Assembly (NCBI GenBank): GCA_020831625.1
Contig: JAFIGD010000004.1
Span: 1-64,000, forward strand
Direction of reading: 5' to 3'
Source of the DNA: Verrucomicrobiota bacterium
GTDB taxonomy: Bacteria > Verrucomicrobiota > Kiritimatiellia > SS1-B-03-39 > UBA6053
DNA length: 64,000 nt
This document shows, piece after piece, positions 3,715-55,608 of the stretch. The translations under genes were made by a program, and so were the position numbers. Each line of letters starts with the position of its first letter. The first letter of the stretch is position 1. A model generated the notes under the pieces. It saw only the letters and a list, made by a program, of their open reading frames with translations, was not told where the DNA came from and searched no databases.

Positions 3715-4887
3715 TCAGCGCTTTTCCTCCGCCTGATGTTCAGGGAGACAAAGGTTAACCTGTGTGCCGCCCTCTTTTGGACAACTGACGATGATGCCGC
3801 CGCCGAGCTTTTTAACGATTCCGAGGCAGACTGGAAGTCCCATGCCGCGTCCGGTGAATTTGGTGGTCACAAACGGATCGAAAATCTGGCGGATTCGGTC
3901 TGACGCTATACCCGCCCCCTTATCCTGCACAATCAGTTTGATGTAGTGTCGGTTTTCCGGAAGGTCTCCGCATGAGCTGACTTGGGGGATGTTCGAGGGG
4001 ATTTTCAAGCAGGACAGGGCGTCAACATGTTCTATGGAAATCCGGGGCGCATGAAGTGGATTGGCTTCCAGAGCGTTTTTAAGAATTTGCAGAACGACTT
4101 CATGAATCTCTGCCGGATTGGCAAGGATTTGATACGTAGCGTTTGAAGCAAGGAGGGACGCTTGCTGTAGTGCAGGGTAGTCATGAACCAGTTCGGCGAT
4201 GACTGTCCGGCAGACGGTCCCAAGGTTGACGACTTCCGGGAGTCCCCGGTTTTGACTCAGATATGTCAGCATTTTTCTGCCGATTTCGGCCGCCTCCTCC
4301 GCGGCGGCATGGGTTTGTTTCAGCAACTGGATTTCATCCCTGTCAGGTCCATCCAGCTCTGTAAGTCCCATAAGAACGAGGTCGAGGCCACCGATGACCG
4401 CCTGGAGTTTGTTGTTCAAGTGATGAGCAATTCCTCCGGCCATCTGGGTGAGGCTGGCGGCTTTTTGTTGCCGTTCCAGCTCCAAAAGGGCTTTGGAGTT
4501 TTTGTCCAGCTTTTTTTGGAGTTCCAGAAAGCGAATGCCGACATGCACTCTGGCTTTGAGTTCGCCGGGGTTTACGGGTTTGACCAGATAATCATTGGCG
4601 CCGGACTCCAGCCCCTCCACTTTATCGGAGGTTTCATTCCGGTTGGTTAACAAAATAAGATACGGGTAATTTTCGATTTCCCGACGGAGTGTCCGAATCA
4701 CGTCCGGACCATCCATCTCCGGCATAATCCAGTCCAGAATCGCCATTTCCGGAGCGTTTTCCCCCAGCATCCGCTTCAATGCCTGCGCACCGTTTGAATA
4801 TCCCTCCACTTCATAGCCCATTTTTTCGAGAAGACGGGTGACGAGGGTTCGGGAGACAAAATCATCATCGGCGACCAGGATTTTCAT
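3715..4887 (-). CDS. Response regulator-histidine kinase hybrid
   Basis: A 390-aa soluble protein with an N-terminal receiver domain (acidic pocket D7-D9, phosphoacceptor D52 in AILDWIMPEMDG, T81, K103). A coiled segment follows, then a dimerisation/phosphoacceptor helix with GGIAHHLNNKL (likely H155). The C-terminal HATPase domain carries DKGAGI and the GRGMGLPVCLGIVKKLGG lid/G2 box. No membrane segment or DNA-binding domain is visible. Receiver-first order means the kinase is probably gated by phosphorylation from another protein. Its start overlaps the stop of the upstream 1372-aa hybrid kinase by four bases (ATGA), making that kinase the likely partner. The H box resembles NtrB/AtoS-type kinases. 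Target and signal are unknown. Confidence 0.85.
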   Translation of the reverse strand: MKILVADDDFVSRTLVTRLLEKMGYEVEGYSNGAQALKRMLGENAPEMAILDWIMPEMDGPDVIRTLRREIENYPYLILLTNRNETSDKVEGLESGANDYLVKPVNPGELKARVHVGIRFLELQKKLDKNSKALLELERQQKAASLTQMAGGIAHHLNNKLQAVIGGLDLVLMGLTELDGPDRDEIQLLKQTHAAAEEAAEIGRKMLTYLSQNRGLPEVVNLGTVCRTVIAELVHDYPALQQASLLASNATYQILANPAEIHEVVLQILKNALEANPLHAPRISIEHVDALSCLKIPSNIPQVSSCGDLPENRHYIKLIVQDKGAGIASDRIRQIFDPFVTTKFTGRGMGLPVCLGIVKKLGGGIIVSCPKEGGTQVNLCLPEHQAEEKR

Positions 4888-42123: not shown

Positions 42124-42929
42124 TGAAACGGTTTTCTTCTTTATCTCGGCTTTTTTTATGGGCGGTTTTATTCGCGGCATTCTTTTCCGGTTGCCAGTCC
42201 ACTTCCATATTTGACCCCTACGCGGTGATTTTCCCAGAAGATGAGATTAGTGCAGCACCTCTCCGGGTTGAGGAGCCTGTCCGGGTTGAGGAGCCTGTGT
42301 TGGAGGCGGACGAGGAACCCCGCTCGCGGCGGCGTTGGTTTGGTCGTCGGTCTGAAGCGGATACCTCACCGGCTGAAGGTGCGGAAGGAGCTGCTGAGAG
42401 TGTAACGGTTCCTCAAACGCAACTAGTGAATCCGGAGACATTGCCGGACCGTTACTTGTTGCGTGTGGGAGATCAGTTGCAGATTCATATCACCGGCTCC
42501 GGTCTCGACGAGCAGTTGGAAATGCCTGTGGATGAAAACGGCGAAATCACCCTGCGTTTCATTGGGCGAATCCGTGCCGCCGGGCGTTCGATTTCACAGT
42601 TGGAGCGGGAGATTGAACTGGAATACACGGAACGCCAGCGGATTTTCAGGGAAGTGTTCGCCCGGGTGAATGTTCCTTATACCTTTTACTTTATTGGCGG
42701 TGAAGTCCGTCAGCCGGGACGTTATCCAATTACCGGGCGGGTGACTCTGAGTCAGGCGATTGTCGCCGCAGGCAACTTTACGGAGTGGGCCCGGCGGGAC
42801 GGACGTTTGACGCTGGTTCGCAATAATGAACGCACGACTATTCTTTTCCGAGACATTTTGGAGGATCCAACCCGTGATATTGAGTTGCGTACCGGGGACG
42901 TGATCACAGTTGAGCGTTCTTTTTTGTGA
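42123..42929 (+). CDS. Polysaccharide export lipoprotein (Wza-like)
   Basis: A 268-aa outer-membrane lipoprotein: lipobox ends FFSGC with C24, then a ~90-residue charged linker. The Poly_export domain (YLLRVGDQLQIHITGSG, ITLRFIGRIRAAGRSISQLE) is followed by one SLBB/beta-grasp repeat (FYFIGGEVRQPGRYPITGR, LSQAIVAAGNFTEWA). It is shorter than E. coli Wza (379 aa), with one SLBB and no C-terminal amphipathic helix, so the outer pore may be supplied by the beta-barrel gene of the locus. The linker contains two perfect 18-base repeats (42263-42298). Starts inside the wzc stop codon. Confidence 0.88.
   Translation: MKRFSSLSRLFLWAVLFAAFFSGCQSTSIFDPYAVIFPEDEISAAPLRVEEPVRVEEPVLEADEEPRSRRRWFGRRSEADTSPAEGAEGAAESVTVPQTQLVNPETLPDRYLLRVGDQLQIHITGSGLDEQLEMPVDENGEITLRFIGRIRAAGRSISQLEREIELEYTERQRIFREVFARVNVPYTFYFIGGEVRQPGRYPITGRVTLSQAIVAAGNFTEWARRDGRLTLVRNNERTTILFRDILEDPTRDIELRTGDVITVERSFL
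42263..42298 (+). repeat. Two perfect 18-base tandem copies within wza
   Basis: The unit CCGGGTTGAGGAGCCTGT occurs twice in tandem and encodes VEEPVR-VEEPV in the lipoprotein linker. Being in frame, copy-number change would only lengthen or shorten the linker. Confidence 0.85.
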
Positions 42930-42936
42930 GCAGAGC

Positions 42937-44835
42937 ATGAACCGTTCCCGCAGAAAGCGAAAGCGGTCCTCGAGTGTGCCGCCCCTTTCGGACGGAAGAC
43001 CGCCGATTCTGGATGCCGGCCTTCTGTCCGGGCTGGTTTTCTGCTCTCTTGTGACCGCCTTTTTGCTGGGAGGAACCGTGTTTTGGACTGCGGCCCCGGT
43101 GTTGGTGCCGGCACTTGTCCTGGTTTTGCTCTCCCAGGGGTTGGCGATGTTTTCAGGAACACCTCTAAAAATGGTGTTGCCTCCGGGTGGAGCCGTTTGG
43201 CTCGTCTTCTGGTCGTATGTCCTTTTCCGGGCAATTTGGATTCCCCGGATCCCCTATCAGGCCTGGTCGGTGTTTCTTTATGTCGGGGCCGTTTTTTTCC
43301 TGTATGTGACGCTGACGGACCTTTGTAACCGCCGTCACGCGGCGCGTTGGGTCATGGGGATGTTTTTCATCGCGGTGATTCTCCAGTCCATGTATGCCCT
43401 TTCGCTGCACTATCACGGGTTGAGGAATGTCCTCTGGCTGCAGCGGCCTGAAAGTTACGGTATGCGTGCCAGCGGCACCTTCATTTGTCCAAATCACTTC
43501 GCGCAGTTGTTACAGATGGGGCTTGTGTTGGCCGCGGCCTGTTTGATTTGGCCGGGGCTGGGAATCCCGTTGAAACTTGTGGCCGGATATTCAATTTTGG
43601 TGGCGTTGCCCTCGATTATTTTATCCGGTTCCCGTGCGGGCTGGTTGGGAATGGTTGTCGGGGTCGGGATTGTTTTACTGGGAGGGGCCCTAAGAAAAGG
43701 CTTTAAGGTGACCTTGCTGGCGATTGCCGCGTTGATCCCCGTTTCCCTGGGTGCGTTCTGGTCCCTTTACCGATATGTCCCGATGGTCCGGGACCGTGTA
43801 GAATTATCCAGACGGGCAGATGTCCGGTTCACCGCGCTTTGGCCTGACACGTGGCGGTTGATTGAGGGAGAAGGTTTCTGGGGGGCCGGTCCCGGGATGT
43901 TCAGACATCTCTTTGAACAATACCGACATCATTTTAATGTGCCCCGTTTATATTTGCGGCACGCCCATAACGAATTCCTTCATCTGATCGCCGACTATGG
44001 CTGGGTAATCTTTTTTGTGGTGGTTTTTGGCCTGTTGGTAATTGTCTGGACGTTTGTCTCGACCTGTTGGCGGGAGCGGAACAGCGCGCGTATGATGATT
44101 CCTTTGACGCTTCTGGCGTTACTTTTCGCGAAAGCCACTCATTCGGCGTTTGATTTCAATGTGCATGTGTTGGGCAATATCGTTCCGTTTGTGCTGCTGG
44201 TCGGAGGATTGTACGGGTATGGTCTGTATGAGGGCATTTGGAAGGTGCGTCCGCTCCCGACCGGGTTGGCGCGGCCGGTTCTTGGGATTTCAATGCTACT
44301 CACTCTGGGTGTCCTGCTGGGCGTTTCGGCGTTCGGGTGGTCCAACTGGGCCGAATACCGGATGGATCAGGCCAGGCGGCGGCAGGATATGGACGCGGAA
44401 AAACGGTATGCCGCGATGATCCGAACCTGGACGCCCTTCCATTGGCGCGGTTGGACCGAGTATGGTTTTCAACTTCGCAGCGAGGCTTTTTTGATTCGGG
44501 ATCCCGCGTTGCGAGCGGAAATTTCGGAGCAGGCTCGGACCGCATATGAAACCGCATTGCGTTGGAACCCTTATGACCGGATCGCCATGCTCGGTCTGGC
44601 TCAGTTGGATATCCGCGAAGGGAATCATGAAGAGGCTCTGGTGATACTCGAAACTCTGATTGTGCTGGATCCGCTGGATGAGCACGTGCGGACGCAATAT
44701 GCCCTAACCCTGCGGCGGCTTGGCCGCTATCCCGAGGCCCTGGAGGCTTTCCGTGAGGCAAGGCGGCTGGAGCCTGGCAACCGTCAGGCTCTGGCCAATA
44801 TTCGCTGGCTTGAGCAACAAATAAGCGGGAACTGA
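42937..44835 (+). CDS. O-antigen ligase/Wzy-type polymerase with TPR C-terminus
   Basis: A 632-aa membrane protein of the O-antigen ligase/polymerase superfamily. About ten helices occupy residues 30-480, with a large periplasmic loop holding the Wzy_C-type signature GEGFWGAGPGMFRHLFEQYR and LRHAHNEFLHLIADYG. After the last helix (~465-485) come TPRs (AYETALRWNPYDRIAMLGLAQL, HEEALVILETLIVLDP, YPEALEAFREARRLEPGN) in the final 150 residues. It would polymerise or attach the repeat units in the periplasm. ATG 42937 (8 bases after wza) is chosen; a TTG upstream lies in wza. The oxidoreductase begins two bases after its stop. Confidence 0.87.
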   Translation: MNRSRRKRKRSSSVPPLSDGRPPILDAGLLSGLVFCSLVTAFLLGGTVFWTAAPVLVPALVLVLLSQGLAMFSGTPLKMVLPPGGAVWLVFWSYVLFRAIWIPRIPYQAWSVFLYVGAVFFLYVTLTDLCNRRHAARWVMGMFFIAVILQSMYALSLHYHGLRNVLWLQRPESYGMRASGTFICPNHFAQLLQMGLVLAAACLIWPGLGIPLKLVAGYSILVALPSIILSGSRAGWLGMVVGVGIVLLGGALRKGFKVTLLAIAALIPVSLGAFWSLYRYVPMVRDRVELSRRADVRFTALWPDTWRLIEGEGFWGAGPGMFRHLFEQYRHHFNVPRLYLRHAHNEFLHLIADYGWVIFFVVVFGLLVIVWTFVSTCWRERNSARMMIPLTLLALLFAKATHSAFDFNVHVLGNIVPFVLLVGGLYGYGLYEGIWKVRPLPTGLARPVLGISMLLTLGVLLGVSAFGWSNWAEYRMDQARRRQDMDAEKRYAAMIRTWTPFHWRGWTEYGFQLRSEAFLIRDPALRAEISEQARTAYETALRWNPYDRIAMLGLAQLDIREGNHEEALVILETLIVLDPLDEHVRTQYALTLRRLGRYPEALEAFREARRLEPGNRQALANIRWLEQQISGN

Positions 44836-46723: not shown

Positions 46724-47419
46724 TTAATCCGTGATCCGGTATTTGAAAATACACCAAATGGCCCGGAATCCGTCTTTCCAGGTGATTTTTTTTCCTTCCT
46801 CATAACTTCGCCCGTAATAACTGATAGGCACTTCGTAGATGACCGCCTTGCGCCGTGCCAGCTTCGCGGTCACTTCCACTTCAAACCCGAAACGCTCCTC
46901 TTTCAGGTTCAGAGATTGAATAATGTCGCGCTTAAACACTTTGTAGCAGACCTCCATATCGGTCAGGTTGATGTTGGTCATCATGTTTGAAAGCATCGTT
47001 AGAAATTTATTTCCGACATAATGCCAATAATAGACCACCCGGTGAGCCCCGCCGCCAAGGAAGCGGGAGCCGTAGACGACATCCGCGCGCCCCTGCAGGA
47101 TCGGGGCGAGAAGTTTGGGGTAGTCTTTGGGGTCATATTCCAGATCCGCATCCTGAATCAGCACAATGTCCCCGGTGGCTTTGGCGAACCCGGTATGAAG
47201 CGCCGCGCCCTTGCCCCGGTTGACCGCGTGAAGATCGATGACCACATCCGGGAATTGTTGCGCCAGTTTTGGAAGCAGATCACGGGTGCCGTCACTGGAA
47301 CCGTCATCGACCAGAATGATTTCGCGGTCCAGACCCGTGTCCACTTCACGTACGGCATTTAAGAGTTCCGCCAGAGTGCTGACTTCGTTGTATACCGGAA
47401 TAATGATCGATAGTTTCAT
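46724..47419 (-). CDS. Family 2 glycosyltransferase (DPM1/Ppm-like)
   Basis: A 231-aa GT-A glycosyltransferase. N-terminal [25 protein letters not shown] (residues 37-45), and the metal/nucleotide motif QDADLEYDP are intact. The C-terminal half has [21 protein letters not shown] and a [15 protein letters not shown] end typical of polyprenyl-phosphate mannose/glucose synthases without the C-terminal TM domain. It would transfer a hexose from a nucleotide sugar to a lipid carrier at the cytoplasmic face. It is the only glycosyltransferase in the window, so it might help the nearby polysaccharide loci, though it is on the opposite strand and adjacent to rsmD. Confidence 0.88.
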
Positions 47420-47575: not shown

Positions 47576-49546
47576 ATGGGCTTCATGACCGACAACGTTT
47601 CCAGAATCCATATTCCTTTTCACAGTGCCCTGCGCATGCTGGGTGGATATTTCCGCGTTCGGGTTCTGGAGCAAATCCGCTCTATCTCTTTTATTTTAGT
47701 GTATTTACTGGGGTTTCAAATTCTTGTACTGGGCACAACCCCGGCCAATGCGCTGCAACTGACGCTCGGGATCGGCATGGTGGTTTTCGGACTGATGTTT
47801 TTTCTGGAGGGTTTAATTCTGGGGCTAATGCCGCTCGGAGAGCAGGTTGGCGTGCAGTTGCCCCAGAAAGCCGGCGTGGTGCTGATTGCGCTGTTCGGGC
47901 TGTTGCTCGGGGTGGGCGCGACGTTTGCCGAACCGGCGATCGCGTCCCTGCGGGCGGCGGGGCTTTCGGTGACACCCTGGGACGCTCCGCTGCTGTATTG
48001 GATGCTGGAGCGCGCGCCCGGCCAACTGGTGGCCGCCATCGGCGGCGGTGTGGGGGTGGCGGTGGCGTTCGGGATGTTGCGCTTTTATTTGGGGCTGCCG
48101 ATCAAGCCTTTTGTTTACGTCCTGATTCCCTTGCTGCTTTTGGTTTCGGTCTATTGCGCGCTGGATGAAAATCTGGTTTCGATACTGGGGCTGGCCTGGG
48201 ACGCCGGGGCGGTGACAACGGGGGCGGTGACCGTTCCGCTGGTGCTGGCCCTGGGGATCGGTATTTCCCGGGCCACGGGTAAACAGGACCGTGCCACCGC
48301 CGGCTTCGGCGTGGTGATGCTGGCGTCCGCATTTCCGGTGCTGGGAGTGATGCTCTTGGGAATCCATCTCAACCAGCAGGCTCCACGCCCGCAAAGCGAA
48401 GCGGATTTCTTTTCGCAGGAGAATCGGAAGAGCGCGATACTCTGGGTCGGATCTGAAGAGGGGCTGACGCTGCTGGCGTTTGAACGGGGAACGGAGACAG
48501 GCCGCCAGGCGCTGTTTCCCGGCGAGGTGTCAGAGCCGCACACGGAACAAGCCCCTCCCGTGATTTCTCCGGGGCTTTCATTAATGCCGGTGATTCGCAC
48601 GGAATCCGGACATGCTGTGCGCTCGGTGCTTCCGTTGACGTTTTTATTGCTGGTCGTTTTGATGCTCTGGCTCCGCAGCCGTCCCCGGCACGGGGACGAG
48701 GTGGCGCTGGGTGTCTTTTTCGCATGGCTGGGCATGAGCCTGCTGACCAGCGGGATCCGGCTGGGGCTGGCTCCGCTGGGGGATGAGGTGGGCCGCCCGC
48801 TTCCCCGTCTGTTCCGCAGTGTGGCGCGTGAGGAAGGCCGCTTGATTTTTGAACCGTTTGACCCGGACCTTGTCTTTTCCGCAGTGGCCTCCGACGGGCG
48901 CGTCGACCGCTTTTTTTATCTTCAGGAATCGGCCGGGGTTCCGCGGGCCGTGCCTTTTGATCCCGAGCGTTTTGATCCGGCACGGATGCGTTATGAACAT
49001 ATTCTCAAACGTCCGCCGCTCTTCGGTCCGGAACTCACGCTGGCTGGAATCGCCCTGGTGTTGATGTTCGCATTCGGTTTGGGCTACGGGTCCACGCTCG
49101 CGGAACCGGCGCTGCGTGCGCTGGGGCGGACGGTGGAGGAACTCACGGTGGGCACGATCCGCCGTGTGGGCGTCGTGCGGGCGGTTTCTCTGGGGGTGGG
49201 CGTCGGGCTGGTGATCGGAGTCAGCCGAATTTTGTACGACCTCCCCATGATCTGGCTTTTACTGCCGCCTTATTTGTGTTTGCTGCCGCTGACCTTTTGG
49301 AGTGATGAGGATTTCGCCGCCATTGCCTGGGACTGCGGCGGGGTCACGACCGGAAGCATCACCGTGCCGCTGGTTTTGGCGATGGGGCTGGGCATTGGCA
49401 GCGAGTTAAAGGTAATCGACGGTTTCGGGGTTCTGGCGATGGCATCCGCCTATCCAATTATTTCAGTTTTGCTGTATGGTTTATGGATGCAACGGCGTCA
49501 GGCCAGAAGCCTCATGGGGACGGAAGGAGATGTGGACCATGAATAA
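47576..49546 (+). CDS. Tandem DUF1538 membrane protein
   Basis: A 656-aa protein made of two related halves of about 230-250 residues. Both contain an AEPA motif (GATFAEPAIASLR / GSTLAEPALRALG) and a WDAGAVTTGAVTVPLVLALGIGI / WDCGGVTTGSITVPLVLAMGLGI pair, the hallmark of DUF1538. A ~200-residue non-hydrophobic insert separates them (residues ~245-450). It is probably a channel or transporter; substrate unknown. The start is uncertain: ATG 47576 follows GGGAGG by 15 bases, 47585 is close by, and 47519 has no visible ribosome site. Its stop overlaps the PII-like gene by 8 bases. DUF1538 genes are known to neighbour PII-type regulators. Confidence 0.82.
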   Translation: MGFMTDNVSRIHIPFHSALRMLGGYFRVRVLEQIRSISFILVYLLGFQILVLGTTPANALQLTLGIGMVVFGLMFFLEGLILGLMPLGEQVGVQLPQKAGVVLIALFGLLLGVGATFAEPAIASLRAAGLSVTPWDAPLLYWMLERAPGQLVAAIGGGVGVAVAFGMLRFYLGLPIKPFVYVLIPLLLLVSVYCALDENLVSILGLAWDAGAVTTGAVTVPLVLALGIGISRATGKQDRATAGFGVVMLASAFPVLGVMLLGIHLNQQAPRPQSEADFFSQENRKSAILWVGSEEGLTLLAFERGTETGRQALFPGEVSEPHTEQAPPVISPGLSLMPVIRTESGHAVRSVLPLTFLLLVVLMLWLRSRPRHGDEVALGVFFAWLGMSLLTSGIRLGLAPLGDEVGRPLPRLFRSVAREEGRLIFEPFDPDLVFSAVASDGRVDRFFYLQESAGVPRAVPFDPERFDPARMRYEHILKRPPLFGPELTLAGIALVLMFAFGLGYGSTLAEPALRALGRTVEELTVGTIRRVGVVRAVSLGVGVGLVIGVSRILYDLPMIWLLLPPYLCLLPLTFWSDEDFAAIAWDCGGVTTGSITVPLVLAMGLGIGSELKVIDGFGVLAMASAYPIISVLLYGLWMQRRQARSLMGTEGDVDHE

Positions 49547-50669
49547 CCCGTTTACGGATCCCCGGGAGGTCGTGCGCATCACCTGCATGGTTCATCAACG
49601 CCTGAACCCTGTCACCATTGAGGCTTTGCGGGATGTCGGCGCGCATACGGTTCTTTCCGAGAGCGCCCGGTGTGTGCGTCAGGAGAGTCTGCCGCCTTCG
49701 GTTCTGAAATTCGGAAGCCGTTTGCGTCATCAGGACGCTCCCATGGATATTTTCCGAACCACGGTGGCGCGTGATTACGCGCTCGGCGCGGTCCGGGGGC
49801 TGCGGGACGCGCTGGAGCTGGATAAACCGGGGCGGGGTTCGGTTTTCGTTCAGGATATTCAGGAGTACAGTATTTTATCCCCGGCGGAAGTTCCGGAATC
49901 AACCCTTGGTTTGGATGACGGGACGCTGCTCAATGATTTAACCCTGATGACTGGAATCGTGTCCACGGTCGGCAGTGCGGAGGCACTGGCACGGATCGCG
50001 CTGCGGCTGGGCGCGGGTGTTCCGGTGCTGACGCTGGGGCAGGGTACCGGAATCCGCGACCGGCTGGGGCTTTTACGGATCGCCATTCCCCCCGAAAAAG
50101 AATTGCTGCACCTGATTGTGCCGTCTCAGGACGCGCCCGGCTTGACGCGGCTTCTGATAGACGACGGACGGTTGGACCGGCCGGGAGGCGGATTCTTATA
50201 TCAGACCCGCGTCCGCGCGGCGGTTGTGGATTCGCTGGTCCGTATCGGACATCAGGAACATGCCGCGAGTATGGAGCAACTTATTGCGGCGGTGGATGAT
50301 TTGAAACGCGGAACCGGCTGGCGAAGGCGCTTCGCGGGGATGGATCCGCTGCAGGAGGGGGGCAGCAAGACGCGCAGGAATCACAGAGAAATCACGTTCA
50401 TCTGTCCCGAGGGCCGCGCCGATGCGTTTGTACATGCGGCGCTGAACACCGGAGCGGCCGGCGCAACCGTGACGAAAGTGCGTTGCCTGAGTTTCAGTGA
50501 TGTGGAGGGCGGGATCGCGGCGCGGGAGCGGGGCGTTTTGTGTATTCCCGCTGCTTTGGAGGAACGGGTTATGGAGGCGCTGCTTGTGGAGGCGGGCCGG
50601 GACGGAGAGTACGCCACACGTCTTCAGGTGTTGGACGCCCCGTCGGTTTTTTCTCATCAACGAACGTAA
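49539..50669 (+). CDS. PII-like multi-repeat protein linked to DUF1538
   Basis: A 376-aa cytoplasmic protein that seems to contain PII-like ferredoxin-fold units. The clearest is residues ~140-226 (IVSTVGSAEALARIALRLGAG, GQGTGIRDRLGLLRIAIPPEKELLHLIVP, DRPGGGFLYQTRV), which follows the PII layout with the usual GxGxG and PxKE motifs. Residues ~284-375 are a second unit (EITFICPEGRADAFVHAALNTGAAGATVTKVR). Residues ~10-130 may be a third, divergent one. ATG 49539 follows a strong GGAAGGAGAT; longer starts lie in the upstream gene. Coupled to the DUF1538 gene by an 8-base overlap, it probably regulates that membrane protein in response to a nucleotide or metabolite. Confidence 0.75.
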   Translation: MNNPFTDPREVVRITCMVHQRLNPVTIEALRDVGAHTVLSESARCVRQESLPPSVLKFGSRLRHQDAPMDIFRTTVARDYALGAVRGLRDALELDKPGRGSVFVQDIQEYSILSPAEVPESTLGLDDGTLLNDLTLMTGIVSTVGSAEALARIALRLGAGVPVLTLGQGTGIRDRLGLLRIAIPPEKELLHLIVPSQDAPGLTRLLIDDGRLDRPGGGFLYQTRVRAAVVDSLVRIGHQEHAASMEQLIAAVDDLKRGTGWRRRFAGMDPLQEGGSKTRRNHREITFICPEGRADAFVHAALNTGAAGATVTKVRCLSFSDVEGGIAARERGVLCIPAALEERVMEALLVEAGRDGEYATRLQVLDAPSVFSHQRT

Positions 50670-50678
50670 GGAGTTATT

Positions 50679-51488
50679 ATGAAGGGTACTTTGGTTTTTA
50701 TCGGCGCCGGGAACATGGCGGAGGCATTATTGCAGGGTATTTTATCCGCCGGGCTGTGGCGGCCGGAGGACGTGTGTCTCACGGACGTTCGTCCTGAACG
50801 CCTTGCTGAACTCAAGGCCCGGTTCGGTGTCAGGACTTCAACAGATAACGCGGAGGCGGTGCGGGGCGCGTCGGTGATTTTCCTTTGTGTGAAGCCGCAA
50901 CAGATTCCGGACGTTCTTTCGCCTCTGAAAGGTGCGGGCGCAGAGGCTCTCTGGGTAAGCATTGCCGCCGGGGTTACCCTCGGCACGATTGAGCATTTGT
51001 TGGGAGAGGGATGCCGGGTGGTCCGGGTGATGCCGAATACGCCGGCGCTGGTGCAGTGCGGGGCGGCGGGGTACTGTGGCGGGACGCATGCCTCCGAGCC
51101 TGATCTGCAGGTGGTCCAACGCTGTCTGGAGAGCGTGGGCATGGCGGTGCGGGTTTCGGAGCCGGATTTGCACGCGGTGACGGCGCTGAGCGGCAGCGGG
51201 CCCGCGTATGTGTTCTACTTAGTGGAGGCGATGCTTCAGGGAGGGGCCTCTCTCGGGATGGACCCTGAAACCGCCCGGGCTCTGGTGGTGCAAACGGTCA
51301 AAGGCGCGGCCGAACTGCTGACGGCCCAACCGACGGTCTCTCCCGGGGAACTCCGGGAGCGGGTTACCTCAAAAGGTGGAACCACTGCCGCGGCCATTGC
51401 CGAGTTTAATTCGCGGGGTGTGGGGGAGGGGCTTACCCGGGGAGTGCTTGCCGCTGCGGCGCGGTCTGTTGAATTAGCCGGTGAATGA
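50679..51488 (+). CDS. proC: Pyrroline-5-carboxylate reductase
   Basis: NAD(P)H-dependent last enzyme of proline synthesis, 269 aa. N-terminal Rossmann motif FIGAGNMAEALLQGIL, then VKPQQ, VRVMPNTPALV, and the C-terminal family signature ALSGSGPAYVFYLVEAM followed by SKGGTTAAAIAEF. Length typical. ATG 50679 follows AAGGAG that overlaps the stop of the PII-like gene (9-base gap), so the DUF1538-PII-proC trio is probably one operon. This hints that the trio concerns nitrogen or amino-acid balance, but that is inference. Confidence 0.94.
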   Translation: MKGTLVFIGAGNMAEALLQGILSAGLWRPEDVCLTDVRPERLAELKARFGVRTSTDNAEAVRGASVIFLCVKPQQIPDVLSPLKGAGAEALWVSIAAGVTLGTIEHLLGEGCRVVRVMPNTPALVQCGAAGYCGGTHASEPDLQVVQRCLESVGMAVRVSEPDLHAVTALSGSGPAYVFYLVEAMLQGGASLGMDPETARALVVQTVKGAAELLTAQPTVSPGELRERVTSKGGTTAAAIAEFNSRGVGEGLTRGVLAAAARSVELAGE

Positions 51489-51545: not shown

Positions 51546-53954
51546 TTATTCCGGTTTCATGTCTCCGGCGGCAACCTGCTCGGGCGGCGCGGTGTTTTTG
51601 GTTTCATATCCGGCTTTGGAATACGTGGAGGCGAATTCACGGTAGTGGACGTCCAACGGCTCGTGTACTTTGCGCATATTGAAGTCGTTTACGATAATGC
51701 CGAGAACAGAGCACCCCACGCCTTTGAACTGCATGAGAACGTGGCGTAACGCGCGGTGACGCGTTTGTGCGCTCCGGCAGACAACGACCACACCGTCGGA
51801 GAGGCCGGCGATGACCAGACCGTCGGAAATAATCCCGATGGGCGGCGTGTCGATAATCACCCGGTCATAATGTTGGCGTGCCCAGGCGATAAGGTTTTGG
51901 ATTTTGCTGCCGCCGAGCAGGTCGGCGGGATTAATATCTGTGGAGGACAACGAGGCGATCAGATCAAGATGCTCCACGGGACCAGGCAGAAGAATTTTTT
52001 CGAAATCCCGGCCTCCCACAGACGAAAGATGGTGAAGAAGGGAATACGATTCTGGATCACCCTCCCGACTTTTAAGAGCCTCTTCGAAGACTTTCGCCAG
52101 ACGCGGACGGCGCATATCGCAATCAATGAGCAGGGTTTTCAGTCCCGCGCGTGCGGAGGTGATCGCAATGTTTGTGGCACTTACGGTTTTGCCTTCGCTG
52201 GGTGACGCGGAACAGAACATGACCACATGGGCTCCGGGGGACACGACGCCTTCTTTTTTGAGGCGCCGCTGGCGGGTAAGATTGATATGGTCCAGAATCA
52301 CCCGAATCGCGTTAAACGCCTCCGCAACCTGGCCGAATTTCTGGTTCATGGAAATCATCGCGAGATCCGCGCGTTTACCGCCGCTGATATGCGGAACAAT
52401 CCCGATGATGCGGCTGGAGATATTGGCTTCCAATTCAGCGATGGAGAAGATTCGATCCTCCATGGTTTCCGCTCCGAGCGCAAGCAGGAATCCGAGGGCC
52501 ATGCCGCCCGCCAAACCAATCGGCAGGATTAACATAATTTTCGGATGGACCGGAGCGTCAGGCCGGGTCGCCCGTTCCACGACTTTGAGGGTGGCGGTAT
52601 CCTCATCGGCGGCGAGACGGGCCTCTTCAATCCGGCTGAGCACACTTTTATAGGCCATTTCGGCCGCTTCCCGCTCCCGTTCGAGCGTACCCAGTCGCGA
52701 CATGCGTTCGACAATCCGCAGTTCCTGACGGGAAACGTTTTCCCGGGATTGTTCAATTTCAGCCACCACCGCGTTTCGTTGCCCTTCGATAATGCGGATT
52801 TGCTGCTGGAAGGTGCCCTGAGCGGAAGCGATTTCCCGATGGATATCCTGGGACAGTTCCTGAATACGGAAATCCACTTCCTGAACGGTGGGGTGACGCT
52901 CGGTGAAGCGCTCCAGGAGCAGATCGCGGTTGGCCCGCGCGGCGCGGTGCGACTGGATGCTGGTGATGATGCGTTCCCGGTTCGGGAGCGCGATTGGAAT
53001 TTCCAAATCGTCAATATCCTGTAAATCAATCGAGGTGACCGTATCCAGCAGTTCCCGGGTGCGCAGGAGTTCTCCGTTTATCTCCACCAGGGTTTGGTTT
53101 AAGGAGAGCAGGGCCATGCGGTCCGCCTCCTGTTGCGCCTTGAGGGTGTCGAGACGGTTTTCGGTACGGAAGGCAAGCAGGGCGTCTTCGGTGCGGTTGA
53201 CCTGGGCTTTTTGTACCTCGGCCTGACGGTTCAGCCATTCAACTGCGGCATCGGATAATTCTCTGTTTTCCTGCTGGAAGAAGGCCTCTGCGGCTTCTGC
53301 GGCTGCATTTGCGGAAAGAGCCGCGACCAGCGGATCGCTGCCCCGCGCCTGAATCTGTACCAGGCGGGACTGACGCATCATGTTATAGGAAATTCTGGCG
53401 AATTCCGGACGGTCTTCACCCGCGACCGGACGCCCGTGCGCGTCCCAGAGCAGATTGAAGCGTTCTTCCGCCAGAACTGCGAATCGATTCCCTCTCAGGC
53501 GTCCCAACCGGGTGTTGAAGACCTCTTCACTGCGGCCGAGATCCTGACGGACCACATCGCCAAGAATGCGCGGCGCGCGAATACTCATTTCAATGAGCGC
53601 GGTGGATTGGTATACCCGTTCCGACCTCCAAAAATAAAGGACCGATGCTCCTAAACCAAAAAGGGTCACCAGCAGAATCATAAACCAACGGCGCTTGAGG
53701 ACTTTCAGCAGTCGCTTGGGAGACAGAATTTCGGCAGCCTGCCCGCCGTATCCATAGCCGTATGCGTCATACCCGCCGCCGGTATAACCGTACTGGGGAG
53801 AGCCGACCGCATATCCATACTGTGCGCCGCCGTAGCCCTGAGGGGTCTGGGGCGCGTATTCATCCTGAGGTGCCGCCACAAAAGGTGCCAGGCGGGCCGC
53901 GGGATAGGAGGGGTAGGTGCCGGAGGGAGGGAGAGATGAAGAATCTTTAGCCAT
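51546..53954 (-). CDS. Polysaccharide co-polymerase/tyrosine kinase with Tyr-rich N-terminus
   Basis: An 802-aa Wzc/CpsD-type protein. A Gly/Tyr/Pro/Gln-rich N-terminal segment with 12 tyrosines (Y14-Y69; QYGYAVGSPQYGYTGGGYDA) precedes the Wzz domain with TM1 at RRWFMILLVTLFGLGASVLYFW. Then come a long periplasmic coiled coil (~215-470), TM2 at MLILPIGLAGGMALGFLLALG, and the BY-kinase: Walker A SPSEGKTVSATN, Walker A' IDCDMRRP, Walker B VIIDTPPIG. The C-terminus has only a few scattered tyrosines (VHYREFASTYSKAGYE) rather than the cluster seen in locus 1. Last gene of locus 2. The swap of tyrosine cluster from C- to N-terminus is odd. Confidence 0.9.
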   Translation of the reverse strand: MAKDSSSLPPSGTYPSYPAARLAPFVAAPQDEYAPQTPQGYGGAQYGYAVGSPQYGYTGGGYDAYGYGYGGQAAEILSPKRLLKVLKRRWFMILLVTLFGLGASVLYFWRSERVYQSTALIEMSIRAPRILGDVVRQDLGRSEEVFNTRLGRLRGNRFAVLAEERFNLLWDAHGRPVAGEDRPEFARISYNMMRQSRLVQIQARGSDPLVAALSANAAAEAAEAFFQQENRELSDAAVEWLNRQAEVQKAQVNRTEDALLAFRTENRLDTLKAQQEADRMALLSLNQTLVEINGELLRTRELLDTVTSIDLQDIDDLEIPIALPNRERIITSIQSHRAARANRDLLLERFTERHPTVQEVDFRIQELSQDIHREIASAQGTFQQQIRIIEGQRNAVVAEIEQSRENVSRQELRIVERMSRLGTLEREREAAEMAYKSVLSRIEEARLAADEDTATLKVVERATRPDAPVHPKIMLILPIGLAGGMALGFLLALGAETMEDRIFSIAELEANISSRIIGIVPHISGGKRADLAMISMNQKFGQVAEAFNAIRVILDHINLTRQRRLKKEGVVSPGAHVVMFCSASPSEGKTVSATNIAITSARAGLKTLLIDCDMRRPRLAKVFEEALKSREGDPESYSLLHHLSSVGGRDFEKILLPGPVEHLDLIASLSSTDINPADLLGGSKIQNLIAWARQHYDRVIIDTPPIGIISDGLVIAGLSDGVVVVCRSAQTRHRALRHVLMQFKGVGCSVLGIIVNDFNMRKVHEPLDVHYREFASTYSKAGYETKNTAPPEQVAAGDMKPE

Positions 53955-54060
53955 AATCGTTCCAAGGGGATGAATTTAGAACATATAACCGACGGAAAGC
54001 CGGAAAGTAAACCAGAAAGCAATATGTTTTCAGTGTCGGCGATAAAGCCGGTGAACCTGT

Positions 54061-55608
54061 TCATGGGGGAGTGTTTTTCAGACGGACCGCAGGCTGGAGA
54101 GCCCGCCAGTCCACACGTTCACTCCACACGGCCCGAGTCCCGTGTGTTTGCTGAGCCATGAGGAGAAAAAGAGCGCCGTGCGCGAAAACCGCCGGGCTGC
54201 GAAAGGGGAGATCAATCATACTGTGAGCCACCATCAGCAGGAGGCCGCAACCCAGACTGAACCGGACCGGGTCCGCCCAGACACTTTGATCGTGATGCGG
54301 GCAGAGGCGGCAATCGCGCAACAGCTTAAACATGGAGGGGACAAACACCAGGCCCAGCAAACTCATGCCGACAAGGCCGAATTCGCACAGAAACTGAAAA
54401 AAATCGTTGTGGACATTGGCTTTACCCCGGCTGAGCAAGCCCCAATATTCGGGATCGAGGTAGTACCCCACGAGATATTTATACCCCCAGCCTCCGGTGC
54501 CGAACCAGGGATGATCTTTCCAGATCGCCCAGGCGGATTCCACCTGAAAAAAGCGCGCTGTGAATTCCCGGCCCGGATCGAGTTTGGTGGTGGCGGCGGC
54601 AAATTCACGCAGATGGGCAGGCTGGGCAAACATTCGAAACCCGGCGATCAGCGCGGTGAGGGTCAGCAGGATGCCGAAAACCGCGTAGAACCGCTGCACG
54701 GGGTGGGCCCGGGGCCATCCAATCACCGCAAGGACGCCCAGGTTCAGAATCAGAACGATCCAGACACCGAGCATACCCGTGCGGCTAACACTGAACTGGG
54801 CGGTGAAAAAAAAGAGCAGCGCCAGGGTTGCGTAGACGGTGAGCACAACCGGCCTGCGCTCACTGCGGTCCCGGAGAAGCTCCCGGAGAAACAGTCCAAG
54901 TGTGTAAGAGAAAACCAGGATGAAATAGGTCGCTGCATTATTGGGGTAGCCAAAGCTGCCAAAGGTGTCACGGCCCGAATTCCGGGCGATTCCCCAGACC
55001 TCGCCCATGCCCCAAAAATCATACATCCGAGTCCATCCCGCGAATTGATGGATGAGGGCCAGAATCGCGACCAACATACAGTTTCCCAGGAAAAATCCCA
55101 CGGTTTTTGGGGATTCGGACAGGGGGCGGGCATGCTTGTAGATGAGAAATACGGTGAACACCGGAGCGAACCAGCGGATCATTTCCATGCCGTCCTCCTC
55201 TGTGAAGGCCCAGGGAAGTCCGGGATGAGGCGGCGGGCTGTATCCCCAGCGTCCGGTGTCAAAATCAAAGACACGAATTCGTCCGCTGTTCCAGGCCTGA
55301 ATTCCCAGAAAAACCATGAAACAGGCGGAGCCCCAAAACGCCGGGTCTCGAAGAAAAGTTTTCAGGCGGGCGCAGCGTGGGGGGAACCCAGCGGATGGCG
55401 GCGCAAGCCAGAAGCAAACCCATGCCCACAGGCTGAGGGGTATGAAACTGCCCTGCCAGCCCGGGAAGGTTCCGGCGTTCATCCAGACCGGAACAAACAA
55501 CACCGGCAGAAAGCCCGAAAGGAGAAGGGGCAGGGCCGTACACGGGGGCAATGAAAAAGCCCGACTCGTTTTCACAGAGGACGGGCTGGTATCGGGGGAA
55601 CCGTTCAC
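54061..55608 (-). CDS. O-antigen ligase/Wzy-type polymerase, exopolysaccharide locus 2
   Basis: A 515-aa membrane protein with about 11 helices. The large periplasmic loop carries the ligase/polymerase signature (SAWAIWKDHPWFGTGGWGYKYLVG, then KANVHNDFFQFLCEFGLVG). It lacks the TPR tail present in the locus 1 enzyme. It would polymerise or ligate lipid-linked sugar repeats. It starts 6 bases after the secreted 214-aa protein gene and is followed after 106 bases by the tyrosine kinase gene, a gap that could hold an internal promoter. Confidence 0.87.
   Translation of the reverse strand: MNGSPDTSPSSVKTSRAFSLPPCTALPLLLSGFLPVLFVPVWMNAGTFPGWQGSFIPLSLWAWVCFWLAPPSAGFPPRCARLKTFLRDPAFWGSACFMVFLGIQAWNSGRIRVFDFDTGRWGYSPPPHPGLPWAFTEEDGMEMIRWFAPVFTVFLIYKHARPLSESPKTVGFFLGNCMLVAILALIHQFAGWTRMYDFWGMGEVWGIARNSGRDTFGSFGYPNNAATYFILVFSYTLGLFLRELLRDRSERRPVVLTVYATLALLFFFTAQFSVSRTGMLGVWIVLILNLGVLAVIGWPRAHPVQRFYAVFGILLTLTALIAGFRMFAQPAHLREFAAATTKLDPGREFTARFFQVESAWAIWKDHPWFGTGGWGYKYLVGYYLDPEYWGLLSRGKANVHNDFFQFLCEFGLVGMSLLGLVFVPSMFKLLRDCRLCPHHDQSVWADPVRFSLGCGLLLMVAHSMIDLPFRSPAVFAHGALFLLMAQQTHGTRAVWSERVDWRALQPAVRLKNTPP

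Follow-up and report, generated by a model that had tools for sequence, protein, structure and literature searches.

Can several PII units be united in one polypeptide, and what would such a chain do next to a membrane transporter? This question is raised by a locus in the 64,000 nucleotide window analysed here (positions 1 to 64,000 of contig JAFIGD010000004.1, assembly GCA_020831625.1, from a bacterium of the phylum Verrucomicrobiota), where a gene for a PII-like protein of 376 amino acids (aa) overlaps the end of a gene for a DUF1538 membrane protein. PII proteins are textbook homotrimers; canonical ones such as GlnB and GlnK have about 112 aa and a single domain, whereas the chain described here has three. 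We lean slightly towards the interpretation that the two genes constitute a cation-homeostasis module, in which, as we infer, a fused UmpA-UmpB antiporter would be gated by a ligand-binding, intramolecular PII pseudo-trimer docked on it.

Three PII-like domains in one chain

The 376 aa protein is composed of three homologous PII-like domains (D1, D2 and D3, Table 1). Profiles of the individual domains (A3, A4 and A5) were built from 16 proteins, excluding the most canonical relative, L048, and were compared with a profile (A6) of 10 single PII units encoded beside DUF1538 elsewhere, 4 of them from two-domain chains. Over 91–95 columns the domains aligned to A6 with scores of 48 (D1), 103 (D2) and 68 (D3), whereas 60 column shuffles per domain peaked at 15.4–16.6 and reversed profiles scored 11–17. 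Searched against the PDB, A6 recovers PII chains (GlnB-3, E 1.4e-7), and single DUF1538-linked PII proteins match Pfam P-II themselves (3.4e-10 for L017 and 6.4e-8 for L069). In direct PDB searches the D1 and D2 profiles reach PII chains with E-values of 0.004–0.006, which are weak alone, and D3 does so only at 0.14. At the position of D3, Pfam P-II is matched by two relatives, L010 (E 4.8e-5, 24.1 bits against a cut-off of 25) and L048 (E 1.9e-8, 35 bits). A preliminary description of this locus had counted two and perhaps three PII units; three are now found on firmer ground, and the first and third segments, whose fold had been in question, are both PII-like by profile. Cold-shock matches from a PDB search with the single sequence were dismissed as chance.

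The chain is strictly linked to, and overlaps, DUF1538. In a sample of 289 genomes across the phylum DUF1538 occurs in 20, and a PII gene follows immediately downstream in 20 of the 21 loci, the remaining one lying at a contig end. The triple chain is present in 24 of 346 genomes of the class, 23 times with DUF1538 immediately upstream and once (L090) at a contig end. Near-full-length matches in the class all cover three domains, and the shorter PII matches examined there are also located downstream of DUF1538. The co-occurrence on which the earlier interpretation depended is thus consistent. No other neighbour is widely shared across the loci, and relatives of the chain were not found on viral contigs. 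On plasmids of other phyla an annotated P-II regulator likewise follows DUF1538, with one domain in Methylocystis and Chelativorans and two in the Clostridia Vescimonas and Peptoclostridium. These partners, together with the single-domain L056 and L058–L060 and the two-domain L052 and L053, occupy the same genomic place as the window chain, belong to the same family by profile, mostly share a PEKE-type end of the T-loop and lack Lys90; they differ in their smaller number of domains, one or two, and in lacking the conserved linker between D2 and D3. In L094 two overlapping PII genes stand beside DUF1538, and altogether two PII units, in one chain or in two overlapping genes, were seen at L052, L053, L070, L071 and L094. 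Such two-unit partners are possible intermediates between the single and the triple forms.

In a tree of all domains, with domain clades spanning 17 proteins, D1, D2 and D3 each form one clade (supports 0.998, 0.982 and 0.973 without L048; 0.49, 0.84 and 0.84 with it). Since each domain makes up its own clade, a single origin of the triple chain, predating the split of these families, is most likely. The D2 clade adjoins the single-domain partner L056, and D2 has the highest mean column identity (69%, compared with 56% and 50% for the other two domains). The chain is under purifying selection: between the window and its sibling L018 the nonsynonymous divergence (dN) is 0.12 at a synonymous divergence (dS) of 1.7, the latter near saturation, and every part is constrained. 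Most constrained is the linker, which is 97% identical to that of L018 (dN 0.013); speculatively, it might contact the membrane or a partner.

The DUF1538 membrane protein

Pfam PF07556 (DUF1538) covers the membrane protein in two stretches (E 5.4e-105 overall, 349.8 bits against a gathering score of 22.6). The motif AEPA, at residues 118 and 509, and the WD motif, as WDAGAVTTG at residue 208 and WDCGGVTTG at residue 585, occur in both halves, which bears out the internal duplication noted earlier. Of the NCBIfam models, UmpA has the best score for the first half and UmpB matches the second; on this protein they yield E 2.7e-56 (190.5 against an equivalog cut-off of 490) and E 8.4e-47 (159.7 against 500), so that neither cut-off is reached. 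Judged by sequence, the protein is a homologue of UmpAB and not a certified equivalog.

UmpAB of Halomonas zhaodongensis is a two-component, pH-dependent Na+(Li+, K+)/H+ antiporter with an optimum at pH 9, for whose subunits 7 transmembrane (TM) helices each were reported (PMC5484666). By analogy, the label "channel" of the preliminary description is probably wrong. The window protein shares with UmpAB the Pfam family in both halves, the A and B types and 7 predicted TM helices per half; it differs in being one fused chain instead of two separate subunits, in two extra soluble loops and in falling far below the equivalog cut-offs. Hydropathy predicts 14 TM helices (7+7) and, with 7 per half, the two halves would therefore have opposite orientations in the membrane. 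An N-in/C-in topology with both long loops (residues 264–347 and 395–486) outside is suggested, because the charges of the short loops fit it (20 K/R and 17 D/E on the presumed cytoplasmic side, 4 K/R and 9 D/E outside). Instead of the single soluble insert of about 200 residues reported before, there are two loops of 84 and 92 aa, parted by two predicted TM helices; the second has no counterpart at the matching place of the first half, nor in L048. In one further locus (L049:4197-7151) about 540 residues separate the two halves of the DUF1538 protein, and ahead of the second half, at the contig end, the reading frame appears to change; a fusion or a faulty assembly could account for this.

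The sibling L018, 82% identical, comes from T3Sed10, where T3 stands for Tanatar-3, one of the Kulunda Steppe soda lakes (PMC13274419; PMC6146748). The high salt and pH of a soda lake fit an antiporter of the Na+/H+ type.

Possible arrangement, ligand and function

According to the mechanism we propose, the fused UmpA-UmpB chain would exchange Na+ and/or K+ for protons, as is the case for the characterised UmpAB. The three PII-like domains of one polypeptide would pack as a pseudo-trimer on its cytoplasmic face and gate it, comparable to the homotrimers GlnK on AmtB and SbtB on SbtA. An intramolecular pseudo-trimer is plausible. Its cap would be asymmetric, because the three domains have diverged in T-loop, B-loop and the Thr29 equivalent; docking would probably rely mainly on one loop, and perhaps just one of the ligand clefts would be complete. 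D2 has kept the T-loop of the partner type, and a chain whose loops differ would match a transporter built of two pseudo-equivalent halves better than a three-fold one; this symmetry argument is speculative. More tentatively still, the covalent pseudo-trimer may have a single origin as an adaptation to a pseudo-symmetric cation/proton antiporter. Its units would then have taken on separate roles, with one loop for docking, one basic loop, one structural unit and one composite ligand site; its threefold symmetry would be broken, and its one- and two-domain stages would still exist.

GlnK and SbtB insert their T-loops into trimeric transporters (SbtB PMC8352866; GlnK PMC8395244). Like the window chain, SbtB is PII-like and shares an operon with a transporter, the Na+-dependent SbtA; it senses AMP and cyclic AMP (cAMP), and it sits as a homotrimer on a transporter that is itself trimeric, in contrast to one chain with three differing domains (PMC8352866). 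In GlnK-AmtB, PII caps the transporter through T-loop contact, and the same contact is likely for the window chain, which is unlike GlnK in its target and symmetry and in lacking the residues for ATP and 2-oxoglutarate and the uridylylation site. For tandem or fused PII proteins nothing relevant was found in the open-access literature and, judged against that literature, the chain looks like an old, conserved, undescribed version of the PII-on-transporter theme; PII is not mentioned in the text of the UmpAB paper (PMC5484666). In such a natural single-chain PII the T-, B- and C-loop of each unit could be mutated separately, which is impossible in a homotrimer. If our interpretation is true, PII control would extend from ammonium, bicarbonate and metal transport to a family of Na+/K+-proton antiporters whose regulation seems unstudied so far, and the partners of this single transporter family, with one, two or three domains, would represent a series from a symmetric oligomer to an asymmetric single chain.

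What the chain may bind can be judged from its loops. At the T-loop position D1 has a long, Arg-rich loop, D2 has the strongly conserved GxGxGxRDRLGLLRxxxPxxKE, and in D3 the loop is truncated and nearly gone. The PGxG glycines of the B-loop are invariant in D1 and D2 and lost from D3, and the Thr at the position of Thr29 is invariant in D3 and lost in D1 and, except for L048, in D2. Lys90, Arg101 and Arg103 are missing from all three domains, and there is neither an RxRTGE motif nor the uridylylation loop with Tyr51; the genome's own GlnB, unlike the chain, carries GDGK and RIRTGE. In canonical PII trimers each ligand cleft is shared by two subunits, of which one contributes its B-loop and the base of its T-loop and the next Thr29, Arg101 and Arg103 (PMC8395244), and the backbone of Gly87 and Gly89 binds the first phosphate (PMC7919409). 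Should the three domains be arranged like a trimer, something like a nucleotide site is conceivable only in the cleft where the Thr of D3 meets the B-loop of D1 or D2. An ATP/2-oxoglutarate read-out is disfavoured by the loss of Lys90, Arg101 and Arg103. By analogy with AMP or the cyclic nucleotide in SbtB, the ligand is likely a nucleotide held mainly by the B-loop backbone, and not 2-oxoglutarate; AMP, cAMP or cyclic di-AMP (c-di-AMP) are possible. The genome encodes a diadenylate cyclase domain (L100, G000:C61:26681-27034), which makes c-di-AMP a candidate; this gene is widespread and thus no proof.

Several points weigh against the gated-antiporter interpretation. Antiport has been demonstrated for one divergent, two-subunit member of the DUF1538 family only, the membrane stoichiometry of UmpAB has been established only to the heterodimer, and physical contact of the PII chain with the DUF1538 protein is something we infer by analogy. 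The window chain alone has no match to Pfam PF00543 (P-II) above the gathering score and receives no family name from Pfam or NCBIfam. AlphaFold, run with two sequences as input (window and L018), gave low confidence (predicted local distance difference test, pLDDT, of 40.5 over the full chain and of 61.5 over D1). In these models the elements of D1 and D3 are in the right order for beta-alpha-beta-beta-alpha-beta; with the whole model Foldseek lists PII chains as top PDB matches (E 3e-4), which is supportive only, and with the D1 model it finds PII among other ferredoxin-like folds.

These matches, which for D1 include ribosomal ferredoxin-like folds, could indicate that D1 and D3 are unrelated folds resembling PII by chance, as neither attains the Pfam threshold in the window protein and their direct comparison is weak (E 0.0018). 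However, both match the single-domain PII partners over more than 90 columns, well above the shuffled and reversed controls, and D3 of L010 and L048 is recognised by Pfam itself; chance resemblance is largely refuted and, in our view, barely credible. Hardly better placed, and still very improbable, is the view that the pair controls the transport of nitrogen, amino acids or proline, with 2-oxoglutarate/ATP as the signal read by PII and with proC as a partner; the preliminary description had taken the proline gene downstream to suggest control of osmotic, nitrogen or amino-acid transport. PII ancestry and the start of proC 10 bp downstream of the 376 aa gene would fit it. Yet proC adjoins the pair only in the window genome and its sibling G002 and lies on a different contig in the congeners G001 and G003, so that of the supposed gene trio the DUF1538-PII pair is conserved and proC is not; moreover, it is the sole proC, each genome searched having one copy, and it was rejected as a partner. 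The chain lacks Lys90, Arg101/103 and the Tyr51 T-loop, and the characterised DUF1538 family member exchanges Na+/Li+/K+ for H+ (PMC5484666). Furthermore, the genome has a canonical GlnB-type PII adjoining an Amt-like ammonium transporter gene (L072, G000:C43:115229-115546); therefore its housekeeping nitrogen PII is this separate GlnB and not the 376 aa chain.

Two other alternatives keep the DUF1538 protein or the three domains as we see them and deserve more weight, each being unlikely. In one, the protein is a cation-proton antiporter whose PII chain senses an ion (Na+, K+ or a metal) or is a constitutive subunit instead of a nucleotide sensor. The loss of most nucleotide-binding side chains would agree with this, as would PII-NG, a relative of PII that is linked to metals, has been likened to CutA1 and, in the passage of PMC7726332 citing Sant'Anna 2009, adjoins the proton-cation antiporter CzcABC. 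That passage describes a situation like the one proposed here, with a single-domain protein and a different antiporter family; around the window chain and its relatives DUF1538 is the sole conserved neighbour, and no CzcABC-type efflux cluster is present. Against an ion sensor or mere subunit stand the invariant B-loop glycines of D1 and D2, as though phosphate were still bound, and the lack of a conserved Cys/His cluster in the chain alignments, with one Cys each in D1 and D3. In the other, which we rate as similarly doubtful, three chains trimerise through D2 as an ordinary PII does, and D1 and D3 are decorated appendages. D2 is by far the best conserved domain and the nearest to the single-domain partners, and a two-domain partner is too short to complete a trimer by itself. 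On the other hand, all near-full-length matches found in the class are three-domain proteins, and D3 has kept its core without T-loop and B-loop, which is what a structural role within a shared trimer would lead one to expect.

Locus layout and other genes

The DUF1538 gene, the PII gene and proC are on the plus strand, and minus-strand genes flank them on both sides, upstream a divergent glycosyltransferase gene (46724-47419) and downstream a convergent Wzc-like gene (51546-53954). The preliminary description had placed the three genes correctly. The DUF1538 and PII genes overlap by 8 bp (ATG at 49539, DUF1538 stop at 49544-49546) and, since overlaps of 4 or 8 bp are seen again in the open reading frame (ORF) coordinates of several relatives, this points to translational coupling.

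Table 1. Positions of genes, domains and sequence elements of the DUF1538-PII locus in the window
Feature	Position	Strand	Basis and remarks
DUF1538 gene, fused UmpA-UmpB-like	47576..49546	+	656 aa; Pfam PF07556, NCBIfam UmpA/UmpB, hydropathy
First DUF1538 half, UmpA-like	47693..48364	+	E 7e-49; motifs FAEPA and WDAGAVTTGAVTVPLVLA
Soluble loop 1, between halves	48365..48616	+	residues 264-347, 84 aa; predicted outside cytoplasm (7 TM/half, positive-inside rule)
Second DUF1538 half, UmpB-like	48638..49483	+	E 4.9e-55; motifs LAEPA and WDCGGVTTGSITVPLVLA
Soluble loop 2, inside second half	48758..49033	+	residues 395-486, 92 aa; predicted outside cytoplasm
AAGGAG ribosome-binding site for PII gene	49524..49529	+	within 3' end of DUF1538 gene
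Triple PII-like protein gene	49539..50669	+	376 aa; ORF and relatives
PII-like domain 1 (D1)	49560..49880	+	hhalign vs A6 E 3.9e-8; PDB profile match PII 1hwu E 0.0037; AlphaFold beta-alpha-beta-beta-alpha, low confidence
PII-like domain 2 (D2)	49926..50240	+	hhalign vs A6 E 1.4e-18; PDB profile matches GlnK1 7p52 and 2j9c E 0.005-0.006
Conserved linker, HAASMEQxIAAxDxLKxGTGWRR	50241..50342	+	between D2 and D3; no match to PII profiles
PII-like domain 3 (D3)	50373..50663	+	hhalign vs A6 E 3.5e-12; Pfam P-II matches in relatives L010, L048
proC, pyrroline-5-carboxylate reductase	50679..51488	+	TIGR00112 E 1.9e-78

Close to the module, at 42910-44835 and 51546-55608 of the window, are O-antigen-ligase-like and Wzc-like polysaccharide genes, which appear unrelated to it. 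Elsewhere in the genome (L073, G000:C65, about 3864-4103 and flanks) a fusion of a phosphotransferase system (PTS) EIIA-2 domain with a weak P-II domain (E 0.0012) lies beside a Na+/H+ exchanger (PF00999); in this genome a PII-like domain is thereby linked to a cation/proton antiporter a second time and in a different way.

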